A DNA stretch of 64,000 bases from the NCBI RefSeq assembly GCF_024228675.1, contig NZ_CP100461.1, forward strand, positions 3,593,398-3,657,397. The letters are read 5' to 3'. The notes beneath the pieces are model-generated. The model saw nothing but the letters and a program-made list of their open reading frames with translations. It was not told the DNA's origin and made no database searches. How positions within the stretch are numbered: the first letter of the stretch is position 1; each line of letters opens with the position of its first letter. The DNA comes from Salinigranum marinum (GTDB taxonomy: Archaea; Halobacteriota; Halobacteria; Halobacteriales; Haloferacaceae). This document shows positions 2,490 through 11,651 of this stretch, piece by piece. Both the position numbers and the translations under genes were made by a program.

Positions 2490-4052
2490 TCAGGCCAAAA
2501 AGACGTGTCGTGGACGGTCGGCGAGGACGTCCCGGCCCCACTGGACCGTCTCGCGGAACTCCTCGGAGCGGAAGAAGCCCATCGCGTCCTCCTTCGAGCG
2601 CCACTGGCTGGAGATGAACATGTCGTTTTGGTCCTCGTGGTTGACCATCAGCGCGGTCTCGTGGTGGCCGTCCATCTCGTCGAGCAGCCCGCCGACGACG
2701 TCGAACTTCTCGACGAACTCCGCGCGGTACTCCGGCTTTACGGTGTAGAACATCCCCATCGTCCCGAAGCCGCTCTCCTCGCCGGCGCGGGAGACCACGC
2801 CCGGGAGCTCCGAGAGGAAGCCCGCGGCGGTCTCGGCCGCCGAGGCCGTCTCCCAGATGCTCACCACTGCGGTCCGGTCGACGGATTCGGCCTCGTACTC
2901 CGCCGTCTTGACGTGTGTGCCGTAGTGCTCGAAGCTCTCGCGCAGGCCCGCGACCTCCTCAAACAGGTCGTCGGGGGCGGCCTCCGAGTACAGCACGGTC
3001 GCGTAGACTTCCTCGCCGTGCGGTTTGCCGGCGTAGATGTTCAGGTCGTCCAGTTCGCCGCGGATCTCCTCCTCGGACGCGCCGCCGTGGTCCTCATCTC
3101 CGTCATCCTCGCCGTGGGCGTGAGCGTGGGTGTCGGCGTCGGCGTGCGCCCCCTGCTCGGCCCCGTGGGGATGGTCGCCCGCGCCGCCGTGGGCGTGGCC
3201 GGGTCCGTGTGGGTGGTCGCCCGCGGCGTCGTGTGCGTGGCCGTGGGGCTCGCCGTCCGCGTCGGCCGCGCCGGTCGGAACCGACTCACCCCGCAGGTAG
3301 GCACCGAGGTCACGCGGTGGGAACCGCCGGCCGACGTAGAACCGTCCGAACTCGCCGTAGCGCGCCGAAACCTCGTCGAACCGCATCTCGTAGACGATGT
3401 CCTTGATGTCCGTCGGGTCCGCCCCGAAGAGCGTCACGCCCCACTCGTAGTCGTCGAACCCCACCGAGGAGGAGATGATCTGCTTGATCCGGCCCGCGTA
3501 CTCGCGGCCGGTGTCGCCGTGTTCTGACATCAGCTCGCGGCGCTCGTCGAACGAGAGGCTGTACCAGTTGTCGTCGCCCGTTCGGCGCTTCGACATCGGG
3601 TAGAAGGAGACGTACTCGTCGTCGGGGAGATCGGGTTTCATCTTCCCCTCGATGTACCGTCGGAGCCCCTCGTCGATCTCGTCCTCGTCGCCGGTGAAGT
3701 AGTCGTCCGAGACGTAGCCCGACACCTCCGTGACCGAGACGTACGACGTCGACTGCTCGAGATAGCCCGCAAGCGCCGTCGTCTCGAACTGTCGTTCCGC
3801 ACGCGAGAGCGCGTCGAGCGACGGCCGGAGGTGTAACACGAGGAGGTCGGCCTTGTGGCCGACGACGCTGAAGACGGCGCTCGCGCCTTCCGAGGCGTCC
3901 TCGACGGCCTCGTGCGACATCAGATAGGCGACGCCCTCATCGACGGCGCGCGTCCGCTCTCGCTCCGGGGCGTCCCGCCAGGCGTCCCAGTCGACGGTTC
4001 TGAAGTCGTGGAGCACGAACCACCCTTCGTCGGTCGGTGGAGCCGCTGTCAT
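2490..4052 (-). CDS. pitA: PitA-type chlorite dismutase-like / ABM-domain fusion, haem-binding
   Basis: A 520-residue protein. The N-terminal part (about 1-250) is chlorite-dismutase/HemQ-like (MKPDLPDDEYVSFYPMSKRR; VGFDDYEWGVTLFGADP). A His/Asp/Gly-rich linker (about 256-326, repeats such as DHPHGPGHAHGGAG) follows. The C-terminal part (about 335-520) is ABM-like (FGTMGMFYTVKPEY, FISSQWRSKEDAMGFFRSEEF). This fusion is the haloarchaeal PitA architecture known from Haloferax. HemQ relatives decarboxylate coprohaem to haem b, so a role in haem metabolism is likely but inferred. The ATG at 4052 has a TATA-like box around 4073-4082 on the minus strand. The kinase gene follows directly downstream. 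The linker could bind divalent metal. Confidence 0.88.
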   Translation of the reverse strand: MTAAPPTDEGWFVLHDFRTVDWDAWRDAPERERTRAVDEGVAYLMSHEAVEDASEGASAVFSVVGHKADLLVLHLRPSLDALSRAERQFETTALAGYLEQSTSYVSVTEVSGYVSDDYFTGDEDEIDEGLRRYIEGKMKPDLPDDEYVSFYPMSKRRTGDDNWYSLSFDERRELMSEHGDTGREYAGRIKQIISSSVGFDDYEWGVTLFGADPTDIKDIVYEMRFDEVSARYGEFGRFYVGRRFPPRDLGAYLRGESVPTGAADADGEPHGHAHDAAGDHPHGPGHAHGGAGDHPHGAEQGAHADADTHAHAHGEDDGDEDHGGASEEEIRGELDDLNIYAGKPHGEEVYATVLYSEAAPDDLFEEVAGLRESFEHYGTHVKTAEYEAESVDRTAVVSIWETASAAETAAGFLSELPGVVSRAGEESGFGTMGMFYTVKPEYRAEFVEKFDVVGGLLDEMDGHHETALMVNHEDQNDMFISSQWRSKEDAMGFFRSEEFRETVQWGRDVLADRPRHVFLA

Positions 4053-6862: not shown

Positions 6863-7032
6863 GCTGTTATCGTGGGATGAACGTACGCAACCCTCTTGAG
6901 CGTGTCCCCTGCTCGGACGCAGTCGAAGCGATGACCGGCGGTTCGTCTCCTCTCACGAGCCCTCCGGGTGATTCCCACACCGCCGCGTCGTTCGACCGGT
7001 GGACCCACGGGCAACGACGCCAGGAGCTACGA

Positions 7033-7227
7033 TCACTCGTCCGCGTCCGGTGTTCGCACCGCGTCCGTGTAGCCACGGAGCACGAAGTTACCGATCCAGA
7101 GCAGTGCGACGACGACCCCGACGAGAACGATCAACGCCTGAGCGATTCCTTCGACGGTACTCGCGGCGGAGACAGTGATCGCGAGGACGACCACGATTCC
7201 TGCCGTGTCACGGAGAGACCAATCCAT
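7033..7227 (-). CDS. Small two-helix membrane protein, function unknown
   Basis: A 64-residue protein with two hydrophobic segments (about 8-23 and 27-49, including ALIVLVGVVVALLWIGNFVL) and a short acidic C-terminus (DAVRTPDADE). I do not recognise the family with certainty; many haloarchaea have small double-helix proteins of this type. A strong TATA-like box on the minus strand (7252-7259) is spaced for a leaderless start at the ATG at 7227, which supports a real expressed gene. Confidence 0.6.
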   Translation of the reverse strand: MDWSLRDTAGIVVVLAITVSAASTVEGIAQALIVLVGVVVALLWIGNFVLRGYTDAVRTPDADE

Positions 7228-7251
7228 CGCAGTCCGGCTTCTTCGCCGTCG

Positions 7252-7259
7252 CGTATATG
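7252..7259 (-). promoter_or_regulatory. TATA-like box for the 7033-7227 gene
   Basis: Read on the minus strand, GCATATAC is centred about 28 nt upstream of the ATG at 7227, the usual spacing for leaderless haloarchaeal promoters. Confidence 0.6.
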
Positions 7260-7427
7260 CTCTGTGTGTCCGGGAGCCGCGGCGAGAGTGGACCGTCGCC
7301 CGACTCGACCGGTCGGGCCGATACGTCTCGGCGACCGTCGACTAACCCGACTCGATAAGACGCGGTCCCGAGACGGCAATCACTATGCTACTCGAAACCA
7401 TACCACACTGTGGAAGAGCGAGATATC

Positions 7428-8210
7428 ATGAGCTCGTCGCTCGAAGACGTCGAATACCTCGTCCGGTCAGAGCACCGCGTAGCGGTGCTTGACGCGCTGG
7501 CTGACGGCCCGCAGAGCCGATCGGAGCTCCGGGCGCTGACCGGCGCGTCGGCGTCCACGATCAGTCGCATGCTCCGCGAGTTCGAGGCCCGACACTGGAT
7601 CGGAAAAGAGGGCCACCAGTTCGAGGCGACACCGCTGGGTGCGTTCGTCGTCGAGGGGCTGATGCGCCTGCTCGGACGGATGGAGACCGAGCAGACGCTC
7701 CGCGAGGTGATGCGGTGGTTCCCGACCGACGACGTGGAGTTCGACGTCGTTCGGTGTCTGCGTGACGCCGAGATCGTGTTCCCGACCGAGAGCGACCCGA
7801 TGGCACCGGTCAGGCGTGCAGGCCAGCAACTGCGCGCCGGAACACGGCTCCGCTTCCTCACGACTCAGGTCACCGTCCAGTACTTCGACGTCGTCAGAGA
7901 GCTGGTCTCTGACGAGGGGATGCACGTCGAAGGGGTGGTGACACCCGGCGTCTACGACACGCTCGTGAGCGATCCTGCGATGGCTGCGGTGTACGATGAC
8001 TTGCGCGATTCGGAGGACGTGCGGGTCCTGGTAACGGAGGGCGTCCCCCTCATATTGCAGATCGTCGACGACCGTGTGGGCGTCGGACTCGTCGACGAGG
8101 CGGCGACCCCCCGGGGGCTGATCTGTAGCGACGCCGACCGCGTCCACAGGTGGGCCGTCGACACGTTCGAGACCTACCGCGGCGAGGCGGAGCCGGTCTC
8201 CGAGCCGTAG
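7428..8210 (+). CDS. HTH transcriptional regulator, FilR1-like
   Basis: A 260-residue predicted regulator. The N-terminal winged helix-turn-helix (about 1-80: SEHRVAVLDALADGPQSR, then TGASASTISRMLREFEARHW) is followed by a middle and C-terminal region typical of the FilR1/DUF1724 group (about 120-250: QQLRAGTRLRFLTTQ, PLILQIVDDRVGVGLVDEAA), which probably binds a ligand. I chose the ATG at 7428 over the in-frame GTG at 7410 because a CGAAACCATACC element (7393-7404) sits about 27 nt upstream of it. A terminator-like hairpin follows at 8223-8237. The next genes downstream, on the same strand, are the DUF1326/DUF2182 pair, a plausible but unproven target. Confidence 0.85.
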   Translation: MSSSLEDVEYLVRSEHRVAVLDALADGPQSRSELRALTGASASTISRMLREFEARHWIGKEGHQFEATPLGAFVVEGLMRLLGRMETEQTLREVMRWFPTDDVEFDVVRCLRDAEIVFPTESDPMAPVRRAGQQLRAGTRLRFLTTQVTVQYFDVVRELVSDEGMHVEGVVTPGVYDTLVSDPAMAAVYDDLRDSEDVRVLVTEGVPLILQIVDDRVGVGLVDEAATPRGLICSDADRVHRWAVDTFETYRGEAEPVSEP

Positions 8211-8222
8211 TCACCTCGTCGT

Positions 8223-8237
8223 CCCGAGACGGGTTTT
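8223..8237 (+). terminator. Hairpin plus T-run behind the FilR1-like regulator
   Basis: CCCG-AGA-CGGG followed directly by TTTT, 13 bp after the regulator's stop codon. The stem is short, so this is a modest prediction. Confidence 0.4.
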
Positions 8238-8401
8238 CCGCAGCCGACAGTCGCGTCGTCACCCGCGCCGCTCGCCACGCTCCCGGTAGGACGATGGCGT
8301 CGAACGGTGCGGGCGTCGAACGGCGGGTCACTCGCTTGCGCGTAGTGGGCCGCGTGCACCGTCTGCAGGCCGGTCACGGGTCGGGCGAATCTCACTAGGC
8401 G

Positions 8402-8409
8402 CTTATATA
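8402..8409 (+). promoter_or_regulatory. TATA box for the DUF1326 gene
   Basis: CTTATATA gives a predicted transcript start near 8430, leaving a leader of about 20 nt that carries GGAGGGA (8439-8445), a Shine-Dalgarno sequence before the ATG at 8451. Confidence 0.65.
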
Positions 8410-8450
8410 CCCGTCCCGATCGAACCGGTTTGTGTCGCGGAGGGACAACG

Positions 8451-9065
8451 ATGGCAGTAGACAACCAGAACCGGTGGAACGTCAAAGGGGAGTTCGTCGA
8501 GGCCTGCAACTGCTCGGCACCGTGTCAGTGCCTGTGGAACGAAGCCCCCGACGACGACGAGTGTACCGCAGCCCTCTTCTGGCACATCGACGAGGGCGTG
8601 TACGAGGGAGCCGACCTGAGCGATCTCACGGTGGGCGTCCTCCTCTACGATCAGGGGCTCCTCTTCGATGGGGGGTGGGATCTGGTCGTCCTCATGGACG
8701 AGCAAGCGACCGACGAACAGGCGTCGGGGCTCGAAGAGATCTTCATGGGCCGAGCCGGCGGCGTCATGGGTGCCGTCGCCGAACTCGTCGAAGACGTGAC
8801 GGACACCGCAGTCGTGCCGATCTCCTACTCGAAGGAGAACGGCCACATCTCGGTCGTGGCGGGCGACGTCGTGGCGGTCGAGGCGGACGCCATCGACGGG
8901 ATCGAAGAGTTACCCGGGGAGGTGTCACCCCATCCGCTCACCTCGCCATCGATGACCGCGTCGACCGGTAAGTCCACGACGGCGACCGTTTCGTTCAACG
9001 ACGAGTTCTCCTGGGACGTGTCAGGCAACAACTCCTACTTCGGCGAGTTCGAGTACGGGGCGTAA
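8451..9065 (+). CDS. DUF1326 domain protein, Cys-rich
   Basis: A 204-residue soluble protein of the DUF1326 family, function unknown. The N-terminus carries the family's cysteine cluster EACNCSAPCQCLW (C-x-C-x3-C-x-C), which looks like a metal or iron-sulphur site, followed by FWHIDEGVYEGADL and VGVLLYD. The ATG at 8451 is preceded by GGAGGGA at good spacing and a TATA box at 8402-8409; the in-frame upstream GTG at 8430 lacks such support. The DUF2182 gene begins 28 nt downstream with its own Shine-Dalgarno, so the two form an operon. DUF1326 and DUF2182 are known to occur as neighbours in many bacteria and archaea. Confidence 0.88.
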   Translation: MAVDNQNRWNVKGEFVEACNCSAPCQCLWNEAPDDDECTAALFWHIDEGVYEGADLSDLTVGVLLYDQGLLFDGGWDLVVLMDEQATDEQASGLEEIFMGRAGGVMGAVAELVEDVTDTAVVPISYSKENGHISVVAGDVVAVEADAIDGIEELPGEVSPHPLTSPSMTASTGKSTTATVSFNDEFSWDVSGNNSYFGEFEYGA

Positions 9066-9093
9066 CCGGGTGCGCTCAGGAGGACCGTGCTTC

Positions 9094-9903
9094 ATGCACA
9101 CGAGAGACGGGTTACGAGAACGCATCGATCTCAGCCGAATCCCGTTCGTCGCGCTTGCCACGTACGTGGTCGCGCTGTTGGCGTGGGTCGCGCTCGCCGA
9201 GCGATGGCTTCCGATGCCGGGATCGGGAACGGCTGCGGGAACGCGGATGGCCGATCCGGGTGCGCCCGAGGCGATGGCGCTGGCGAACGGGCCGTCCGGT
9301 GTCGGACTGTACCTGCTCATGTGGGGTGTGATGATGCTCGCGATGATGTATCCCGCGACGGTGCCGCTGTTTCGGCTGTACAACGGGACGCTCCGGGGAA
9401 CGACCAAGCCCGAGCGGATAACGCGCCTCGGCGCGTTCATGGGGACGTACACGGTCGTGTGGGCACTCACGGGAGTCGTACCGCTCGCGGTGAACCGTGT
9501 CGTTCCGGTCGCCACCCTCGCCGCCGAGAGCGGCACGGTTCTTCTGGGCGCATCCCTGCTGGTGTTGTCCGCGTATCAGCTCTCCTCGTACAAGCACCGC
9601 TGTCTCGACTACTGCCGGTCGCCGCTCGGCTTCCTCACGGACCACTATCGCCCCGGGGTCCGCGGTGCGATACGGTTGAGCGGACGGTTCAGCGTGTTCT
9701 GTCTCGGGTGTTGCTGGGCGCTGATGGGGCTCATGGTCGTCGTCGGCTCGATGAACCTGCTGTGGATGGCCGGCATCACGATCGTCGTGTCGCTCGAACG
9801 GATGGTGTCGTGGGGCGACCGGCTGGCGACAGCCACCGGGCTCGTCTCCGGCGTCGTCGGACTCGGGCTCGTCGTGGCGGGTCAGCTCCCGCTCGTCGGC
9901 TGA
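9094..9903 (+). CDS. DUF2182 predicted metal-binding integral membrane protein
   Basis: A 269-residue membrane protein with about six helices. The family signature is MWGVMMLAMMYPATVPL, a Met-rich helix resembling copper-protein segments. Cys/His motifs sit in the loops and later helices (HRCLDYC, FCLGCCWALMGLM). I chose the ATG at 9094 because AGGAGG lies 9 nt upstream; the in-frame GTG at 9070 lacks this. The conserved pairing with DUF1326 suggests a joint role, possibly in metal binding or transfer across the membrane. That is inference from the cysteines and methionines; no function is established. It ends 60 bp from the convergent lysS gene. Confidence 0.88.
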   Translation: MHTRDGLRERIDLSRIPFVALATYVVALLAWVALAERWLPMPGSGTAAGTRMADPGAPEAMALANGPSGVGLYLLMWGVMMLAMMYPATVPLFRLYNGTLRGTTKPERITRLGAFMGTYTVVWALTGVVPLAVNRVVPVATLAAESGTVLLGASLLVLSAYQLSSYKHRCLDYCRSPLGFLTDHYRPGVRGAIRLSGRFSVFCLGCCWALMGLMVVVGSMNLLWMAGITIVVSLERMVSWGDRLATATGLVSGVVGLGLVVAGQLPLVG

Positions 9904-9962
9904 GACCGGGGGAACGCCCACACGACGGTAACACGTACCTGGGCCTCGATACCCGCCCGACG

Positions 9963-11651
9963 CTACTCCTCGCGCCGGAGCCGCCGCACCACGAACTCGC
10001 GGTCGAGTTCGCCGAGGAACTCCCCGAGTCGGGGACCGGAGTCGGCGTCGAAGAAGAGCCGGTAGCCGGCCCCGAAGAACTCGCCCGTCTCGATCCCGCA
10101 CTCCTCGGGGAGTTCGTACATCTGTCCCTGGATCTCCTCGCCCGTGTGTCCCGCCTCGACGAAGTCGGCGAGGGCATCGAGCGCTCTCACCGTCGACCGG
10201 TCGAAGTCGACCTCGGGCAACGCCGCCTGCAGGCGGTAGTTGTACTCGTTGTCCATGCGCTCGGCCCACGCGCGGGCTTGTTCGACCCGCGCGAGCGCCT
10301 CCTCGACCGCCCACTCGGGCGTGTCGTCGGTGATGTGGCCCTCGTTGCGGGCCATCCGCTCTCGCAACCCACGGTCGTCGGTCATCCCGAGCACGGCCGC
10401 GAACGTGTAGGGGATCCGGACCCGCTCTTCCCGCACCTCGTCGACGACGAAGGGGTACGCGCGGTCGGCGAGCGCGGCGACAGTCTCGTCTTCGACCTCG
10501 CCGAAGTAGACGCGCTCGAAGCGGTCGAACTCGTCGACGAGTTGGTCCAGCCGGGAGACGTCGAAGTCCTTCGCCTTCTTGGGGTTCCGAACGAAGAAGT
10601 ACCGCAACACCTCGGGTTCGAGGAGTTCGAGCACCTCGTCGACGGTGACGACGTTGCCCGAAGAAGAAGAAAGCGGCTCGCCGTTGAGCGTGAACCACTC
10701 GTACGTCATGGGGACGGGCGGATCGATCCCGAGGACGGTCTCGGCGATGTCCTCGCCGGAGGGCCACGACCCCTCGGCGTGGTCCTTGCCGAACGGTTCG
10801 AAGTCGACCCCGAGCACCTGCCACTGAGCGGGCCACTCGAACCGCCAGGGGAGTTTTCCCTCCCTGAACGAGGCGGTCCCCTCGTGGCCACAGCCGTCGA
10901 TCTGCTGGCCGCCGGCTTCGAGTCCGGAACAGACGTAGTCGACCGTTCCCGCGTCGAGATCCACCCGTCGAATATCTGTCGTCAGCTTCCCGCACTCGGC
11001 ACACTGCGCCATGAACGGGACGTACGAGCCGTCGACACCGTCCTGATACTCGCTCAGCACCTCGCGGGCGACATCGGCCTCGGCGAGGACGTGGCCGACG
11101 ACGTCGTCGAACTCGCCCGCCTCGTACATCGCGGTGTTCGACAGCATCTCGACCGGCACGCCGATCCGGTCGGCGCTCTCCTCCAAGAGGGCACTGAAGT
11201 GGTCGCCGTAGGAGTCGTGGTCGCAGTCGTCGAACGGGTCGGGGATCGACGTGTAGGGCACGCCGAGGTTTCGCCCGAGCGCGCCCGCGTCGACCTCTCC
11301 CAGGCCGACCAGGTTCCAGTCGGCGTCGGCGAGCGTTCTCGGAACCTTGCGGAGGGCGTCGCGGTCGTCGGAGGTGAACACCTGCCGGACCTCGTGGCCC
11401 CGCTCGCGGAGCACTTCGGCGACGTAGTAGCCGCGCATGATCTCGTTGAAGTGCCCCAGGTGGGGGATCCCCGACGGCGAGACGCCGCCCTTGATCACGA
11501 CGGGGTCAGTGGGGGATCGTGCCTCGATCGCGTCGGCGATCTCGTCGGCCCAGAAGGCGCGGTACTCGGCGTCGTCGCCGTCGTCATCGTCGGCACTCGA
11601 ACCGATGTCGCTCGCCCCCGCGTCAGCCGCCGGCGACTGCTCGTCCGTCAT
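9963..11651 (-). CDS. lysS: Lysyl-tRNA synthetase, class I
   Basis: A 562-residue class I LysRS, the form common in euryarchaea. It charges tRNA-Lys with lysine in the cytosol. Visible: the HIGH-type motif SGIPHLGHF near residue 60, the KMSKS-type motif LSSSSGN near residue 325, a Cys-containing zinc-binding insert (CAECGK) and an anticodon-binding helical C-terminus. The ATG at 11651 overlaps the stop of pyrH (ATGA), so the two are translationally coupled. A tRNA-Lys gene lies 36 kb away at 47218. Confidence 0.96.
   Translation of the reverse strand: MTDEQSPAADAGASDIGSSADDDDGDDAEYRAFWADEIADAIEARSPTDPVVIKGGVSPSGIPHLGHFNEIMRGYYVAEVLRERGHEVRQVFTSDDRDALRKVPRTLADADWNLVGLGEVDAGALGRNLGVPYTSIPDPFDDCDHDSYGDHFSALLEESADRIGVPVEMLSNTAMYEAGEFDDVVGHVLAEADVAREVLSEYQDGVDGSYVPFMAQCAECGKLTTDIRRVDLDAGTVDYVCSGLEAGGQQIDGCGHEGTASFREGKLPWRFEWPAQWQVLGVDFEPFGKDHAEGSWPSGEDIAETVLGIDPPVPMTYEWFTLNGEPLSSSSGNVVTVDEVLELLEPEVLRYFFVRNPKKAKDFDVSRLDQLVDEFDRFERVYFGEVEDETVAALADRAYPFVVDEVREERVRIPYTFAAVLGMTDDRGLRERMARNEGHITDDTPEWAVEEALARVEQARAWAERMDNEYNYRLQAALPEVDFDRSTVRALDALADFVEAGHTGEEIQGQMYELPEECGIETGEFFGAGYRLFFDADSGPRLGEFLGELDREFVVRRLRREE

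Follow-up and report, generated by a model that had tools for sequence, protein, structure and literature searches.

The archaeal DUF1326 and DUF2182 genes described here belong to a pair that is near-obligatory across bacteria and archaea. We hold, with modest confidence, that the two proteins make up a system for a soft metal, most likely Cu(I), in which a cytosolic DUF1326 protein would feed a DUF2182 copper chaperone in the membrane, and which in the host genus would be under the control of a FilR1-type regulator. The three genes form a unit on the (+) strand of a window of 64,000 nt, the whole stretch of DNA analysed, from a salt-loving archaeon (coordinates are positions in the window). 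The FilR1-type transcriptional regulator (260 aa, 7428..8210) is followed by the DUF1326 protein (204 aa, 8451..9065), predicted to be a cytosolic metal-binding protein with five cysteines and an acetoacetate-decarboxylase fold, and by the DUF2182/PpoB2 family membrane protein (269 aa, 9094..9903), a predicted copper chaperone or translocator with intramembrane Met and Cys residues.

The initial annotation had proposed these three reading frames, their families and the position of the regulator just upstream of the pair on the same strand, and all of this is borne out. The regulator, which ends before the DUF1326 start at 8451, combines a winged HTH domain, HVO_A0261_N (94 bits, E 4e-27), with the ligand domain FilR1_middle (74 bits, E 1.5e-20), both above the Pfam cut-off. 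DUF1326 matches PF07040 from end to end (157 bits against a cut-off of 25; profile positions 1-177 of 177), and DUF2182 matches PF09948 nearly so (183.3 bits against 28.7; positions 1-186 of 188). The pair had also been called conserved but uncharacterised. The conservation stands, and a literature search for DUF1326, within one library, found no paper. DUF2182 is no longer uncharacterised, because PF09948 (formerly DUF2182) is now named in Pfam "PpoB2, Copper chaperone", after a protein with a published copper role. PpoB2 of Marinomonas mediterranea has been described as a membrane-spanning, metal-binding protein from which the tyrosinase PpoB1 receives copper, and as the first COG5486 member to be given a role (PMC2855505). 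The window protein shares its Pfam family (183 bits) but differs in having no tyrosinase gene beside it, in being paired with DUF1326 and, in the genus, in the addition of the FilR1-type regulator.

PF07040 is present in 46 of the 392 genomes of the order, in 45 of them above the cut-off, and DUF2182 adjoins DUF1326 at every one of the 44 genuine haloarchaeal loci retrieved in addition to that of the window. DUF2182 of the paired, high-scoring kind is likewise present in 46 of the order's genomes, and DUF1326 is there in 45 of these; the sole exception is a 61% complete assembly in 500 contigs. A scan with one genome per species gave a set of the 80 best relatives of DUF2182, of which 78 had DUF1326 adjacent; one of the two exceptions lies at a contig end. 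Unpaired DUF2182s are under-sampled in this set, because it consists of the top matches to a paired query. These 80 come from Pseudomonadota, Actinobacteria, Acidobacteria, Verrucomicrobia, Gemmatimonadetes, Cyanobacteria, Bacteroidetes, Chloroflexi and an uncultured archaeon. No further partner recurs beside the pair, either in the haloarchaeal loci or in the 80 best-relative loci. Haloarchaea have a further DUF2182 subfamily that lacks DUF1326 and lies on plasmids (L089 5971-6789, L090 5890-6675), where its neighbours are genes for cbb3-type oxidase subunit I, a permease and heavy-metal-associated domain proteins.

The cysteine and methionine motifs noticed at the outset are present: DUF1326 carries C19-x-C21-x3-C25-x-C27 plus C38, and DUF2182 carries MMLAMMYP (M80-P87), C170-x3-C174 and C203-x2-C206-C207. 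All 45 haloarchaeal sequences of DUF1326 and all 79 diverse ones keep the five Cys. In DUF2182, C170, C174, C203, C206, C207, M85 and P87 are kept in all 80 relatives and M84 in 79. Metal handling by the pair, probably of copper, which the initial annotation had suggested, is supported by invariant Cys and Met in 79-80 relatives, by the PpoB2 precedent and by the copper genes that adjoin some of the bacterial copies; the Cys/Met sets also fit soft metals other than copper. Conservation of His is narrower. H161 of DUF1326 is invariant within haloarchaea only, and position 199 of DUF2182, four residues before C203, is His in 74 of the 80 diverse relatives but Phe in the window protein (9688-9690), as in many haloarchaea; the archaeal membrane site may therefore be different. 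The DUF2182 of one genome, G267 (L064 5086-5973, - strand), has a long His-rich insert with HDHST repeats in a predicted external loop, which is suggestive of extra metal binding.

AlphaFold models of good quality were obtained for DUF1326 (pLDDT 93, pTM 0.90) and DUF2182 (pLDDT 87, pTM 0.82). The DUF2182 model is a 7-TM protein with the Met and Cys residues within the membrane; compared with the PDB it gave no match above noise, and no solved relative was found among the structures searched. In 79 relatives, basic residues (K+R) outnumber acidic ones (D+E) in loop 2 (2.3/0.6) and loop 4 (4.4/1.2), and acidic residues exceed basic ones in loops 1 and 3. By the positive-inside rule these charges argue for a cytosolic N-terminus and a cytosolic C170/C174 loop. 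That loop would then lie on the same side as DUF1326, which has no signal peptide.

The path that we envisage begins with the five invariant Cys of DUF1326, which would hold the metal where the first two barrel strands join (the cluster lies between strand 1, 9-19, and strand 2, 37-51, of the model). DUF1326 would dock with DUF2182 and pass the metal to C170xxxC174 in the cytosolic loop. The putative intramembrane site, made of M80/M84/M85 of helix 2 and C203/C206/C207 of helix 5, would move it into the membrane or through it. The recipient may be a cupro-enzyme encoded elsewhere, as with PpoB2 and its tyrosinase. In the host genus, the regulator that co-moves with the pair would control it through a near-palindrome at 8354-8367.

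The fold of DUF1326 brings up a different reading, namely that it is an enzyme of the acetoacetate decarboxylase superfamily whose Cys are structural or redox-active. As modelled, DUF1326 has an acetoacetate-decarboxylase fold: the match to the superfamily has a Foldseek E of 8e-5 and a VIA Z of 10.9 over 157-164 residues (rmsd 4.6, 157 aligned), and the first 12 VIA rows all belong to it. The enzymes of this superfamily have a Schiff-base lysine, whereas no Lys is conserved in at least 80% of 79 DUF1326 homologues (judged by conservation alone), and catalysis of this type is therefore unlikely. With the fold in common with, for example, 3c8w and MppR (4jmd), and with an invariant Cys5 cluster in place of the conserved Lys, DUF1326 is very improbable as such an enzyme. 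The cysteines might instead serve a thiol-redox system in which Cys pairs of DUF2182 relay electrons or disulfides with DUF1326 as the partner. Both proteins do have Cys pairs, and one DUF2182 gene has a DsbB family gene immediately before it, but the invariant Met of helix 2 and the CxCx3CxC cluster suit soft-metal ligands better and no thioredoxin-like neighbour is consistent, which makes this reading improbable too.

The remaining alternative keeps the metal and drops the client enzyme: DUF1326 would sequester a soft metal (Cu, Ag, Hg or Zn) and DUF2182 would export it, in detoxification. It fits the absence of a client gene nearby, the patchy and mobile distribution of the pair in the order (about 12% of genomes, plasmids included, as in Haloferax mediterranei, where the pair is on the plasmid pHME505) and a DUF2182 that stands beside CueR and a P-type ATPase. 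Against it, PpoB2 is described as a copper donor to an enzyme (PMC2855505), and the pair often lies beside ordinary metabolic genes, such as those of DMSP catabolism, and not beside resistance genes. We regard detoxification as unlikely, though worth keeping in view, and prefer delivery of Cu(I) by the pair.

Bacterial neighbourhoods are varied. In Sulfitobacter, genes for a heavy-metal P-type ATPase, CueR and DUF305 are near DUF2182, and in Mycobacterium gallinarum CopC and a metal-sensitive regulator are beside DUF1326. Marinovum and Antarctobacter have the pair inside DMSP gene clusters; the roseobacter pair, with its gene order reversed, precedes dmdA there (L088 6209-12851, L096 5190-8742). 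In Marinovum, both pair genes are annotated as DMSP breakdown and a gene for SBP56, of the copper-dependent methanethiol oxidase family (PMC5739008), follows a few genes later. SBP56 was considered as the client and rejected. It occurs in 34 of 45 pair genomes against 104 of 347 others (Fisher p 6e-9), a co-occurrence that is a clade effect, since there is no consistent association within genera: genomes with and without the pair are mostly positive in genera g28, g35, g78 and g85, both groups are negative in g54, and g40 is reversed, with SBP56 in 0/3 pair genomes and in most listed genomes without the pair. It is also absent from 11 of the 45 pair genomes. No tyrosinase gene adjoins the pair in the window or appears among the listed neighbour families, and in haloarchaea no cupro-enzyme gene adjoins it. 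On pHG1 of Cupriavidus a GDCCVxC (seleno)protein gene lies directly 3' of the pair (L091 6679-6906). Elsewhere in the window, 2490-4052 (-) encodes a single chlorite dismutase plus ABM domain protein, with a long His/Asp-rich linker between the two parts.

Within the genus, the regulator and the pair travel together. The trio sits in a stretch (6917..9967, borders approximate) that three congeners lack in their orthologous lysS-M50 interval, where none of them has the trio. Their site is not a clean empty one, as about 0.6-0.7 kb of unrelated sequence stands in place of the trio. Two congeners (G394 and G393) have regulator, DUF1326 and DUF2182 in the same order and orientation at other, unrelated genomic sites, with identities to the window trio of 70 and 77% for the regulator, 84% for DUF1326, and 82 and 78% for DUF2182. 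The trio therefore moves as a unit within the genus. In the third congener the pair is more distant in sequence (42 and 57%) and stands without the regulator. Thus the expectation that the regulator would be conserved beside the pair holds for the genus, where two congeners have the same trio, and fails elsewhere: a FilR1-type gene is the immediate neighbour in 4 of 44 haloarchaeal pairs, and most haloarchaea with DUF1326-DUF2182 have the pair alone. Four is more than chance would give (about 0.2-0.4 expected, P 8e-5 to 1e-3), and the host genome has 12 FilR1_middle copies. The four neighbours come in three orientations (same strand, divergent, convergent), and a plasmid of Natrinema sp. SYSU A 869 has a further divergent FilR1-type gene with the pair. 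In a tree, the pair-adjacent regulators fall into two clades; the association therefore arose more than once, or genes were replaced.

A metal-sensing regulator, as first suggested, is not supported. An alignment of the three trio regulators keeps two His and one Cys (C111, alignment numbering), and with a single conserved Cys, sensing of a metal through cysteines is unlikely; the match to the NCBIfam model HTH_metalloreg is below cut-off. The ligand is probably not a Cys-bound metal. FilR1 of Methanosaeta harundinacea has the FilR1 middle domain and an N-terminal HTH in common with the window regulator, but acts in a two-component system (PMC3991700), whereas the window regulator is a single gene with an N-terminal domain of the HVO_A0261_N family.

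The candidate operator is GTGCACCGTCTGCA (8354..8367, +), a conserved near-palindrome whose first base is 97 bp upstream of the DUF1326 start codon. In an upstream alignment it is exact to GTGCAYCGTCYGCA at -97 in 3/3 trio genomes, which are three related genomes, and the other 44 pair promoters each differ from GTGCAYCGTCYGCA at three or more positions. The host genome has one GTGCAYCGTCYGCA site. Being absent from those 44 promoters and present once in the host genome, this footprint fits an operator of the trio's regulator; in congeners GTGCAYCGTCYGCA occurs at two further places, with no gene of the trio within 1.5 kb of either. A second palindrome, AACCGGTT (8423..8430, +), near the expected transcription start, is a weak candidate, exact in the window and G394 and degenerate in G393.

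The TATA box ascribed to the pair is present (TTATATA, 8403..8409, +), and its position is kept in congeners. Just 5' of it lies the element TCACTAG (8392..8398, +), kept in the trio genomes and found exactly in 12/45 pair promoters as against 1/516 other upstream regions, an enrichment partly due to shared descent; among 14 divergent representatives three have it (p 6e-5). The promoters with TCACTAG, upstream of DUF1326 in the window and in loci L042, L058, L060, L069, L072, L076, L078, L079, L080, L082 and L084, are mostly without an adjacent FilR1 gene. A TCACTAG regulon was considered and rejected: in the host genome the TATA-spaced form occurs at the pair only, and 12 other genomes are near or below the reversed control. 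The two Shine-Dalgarno sites, GGAGGG of DUF1326 (8439..8444, +) and GGAGGA of DUF2182 (9079..9084, +), were rightly described as good and as unusual for this DNA, because the window is poor in SD-like sites (at most 9 of the 51 genes called have one, as do 4.4% of all ATGs on the + strand). They are not conserved, however: a 5-nt match is found in 7 of 44 DUF1326 and 2 of 44 DUF2182 orthologues of the order.

The role proposed for the pair, Cys-based copper delivery to a cupro-enzyme, is like that of the SCO1/SenC copper chaperones, one of which is encoded beside mtoX (PMC5739008); the families are different, and family searches gave no sequence relation. In the published inventory of copper proteins of Haloferax mediterranei (PMC9240420) the metallochaperones are SCO proteins, CutA and a P-type ATPase, and no DUF2182 protein is included, although the species has the pair on its plasmid. 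We put forward, only tentatively, the broader view that the pair is a widespread and overlooked route of Cu(I) delivery, in which a Cys5 metallochaperone of acetoacetate-decarboxylase fold loads a 7-TM Met/Cys translocator, and to which archaea add a dedicated, ligand-responsive FilR1-type regulator. If this is true, a pair present in many bacterial phyla and in archaea, half of it without an assigned function, would be a copper delivery route. It would also be one built from a fold that, to our knowledge, is not otherwise known for metal chaperones.
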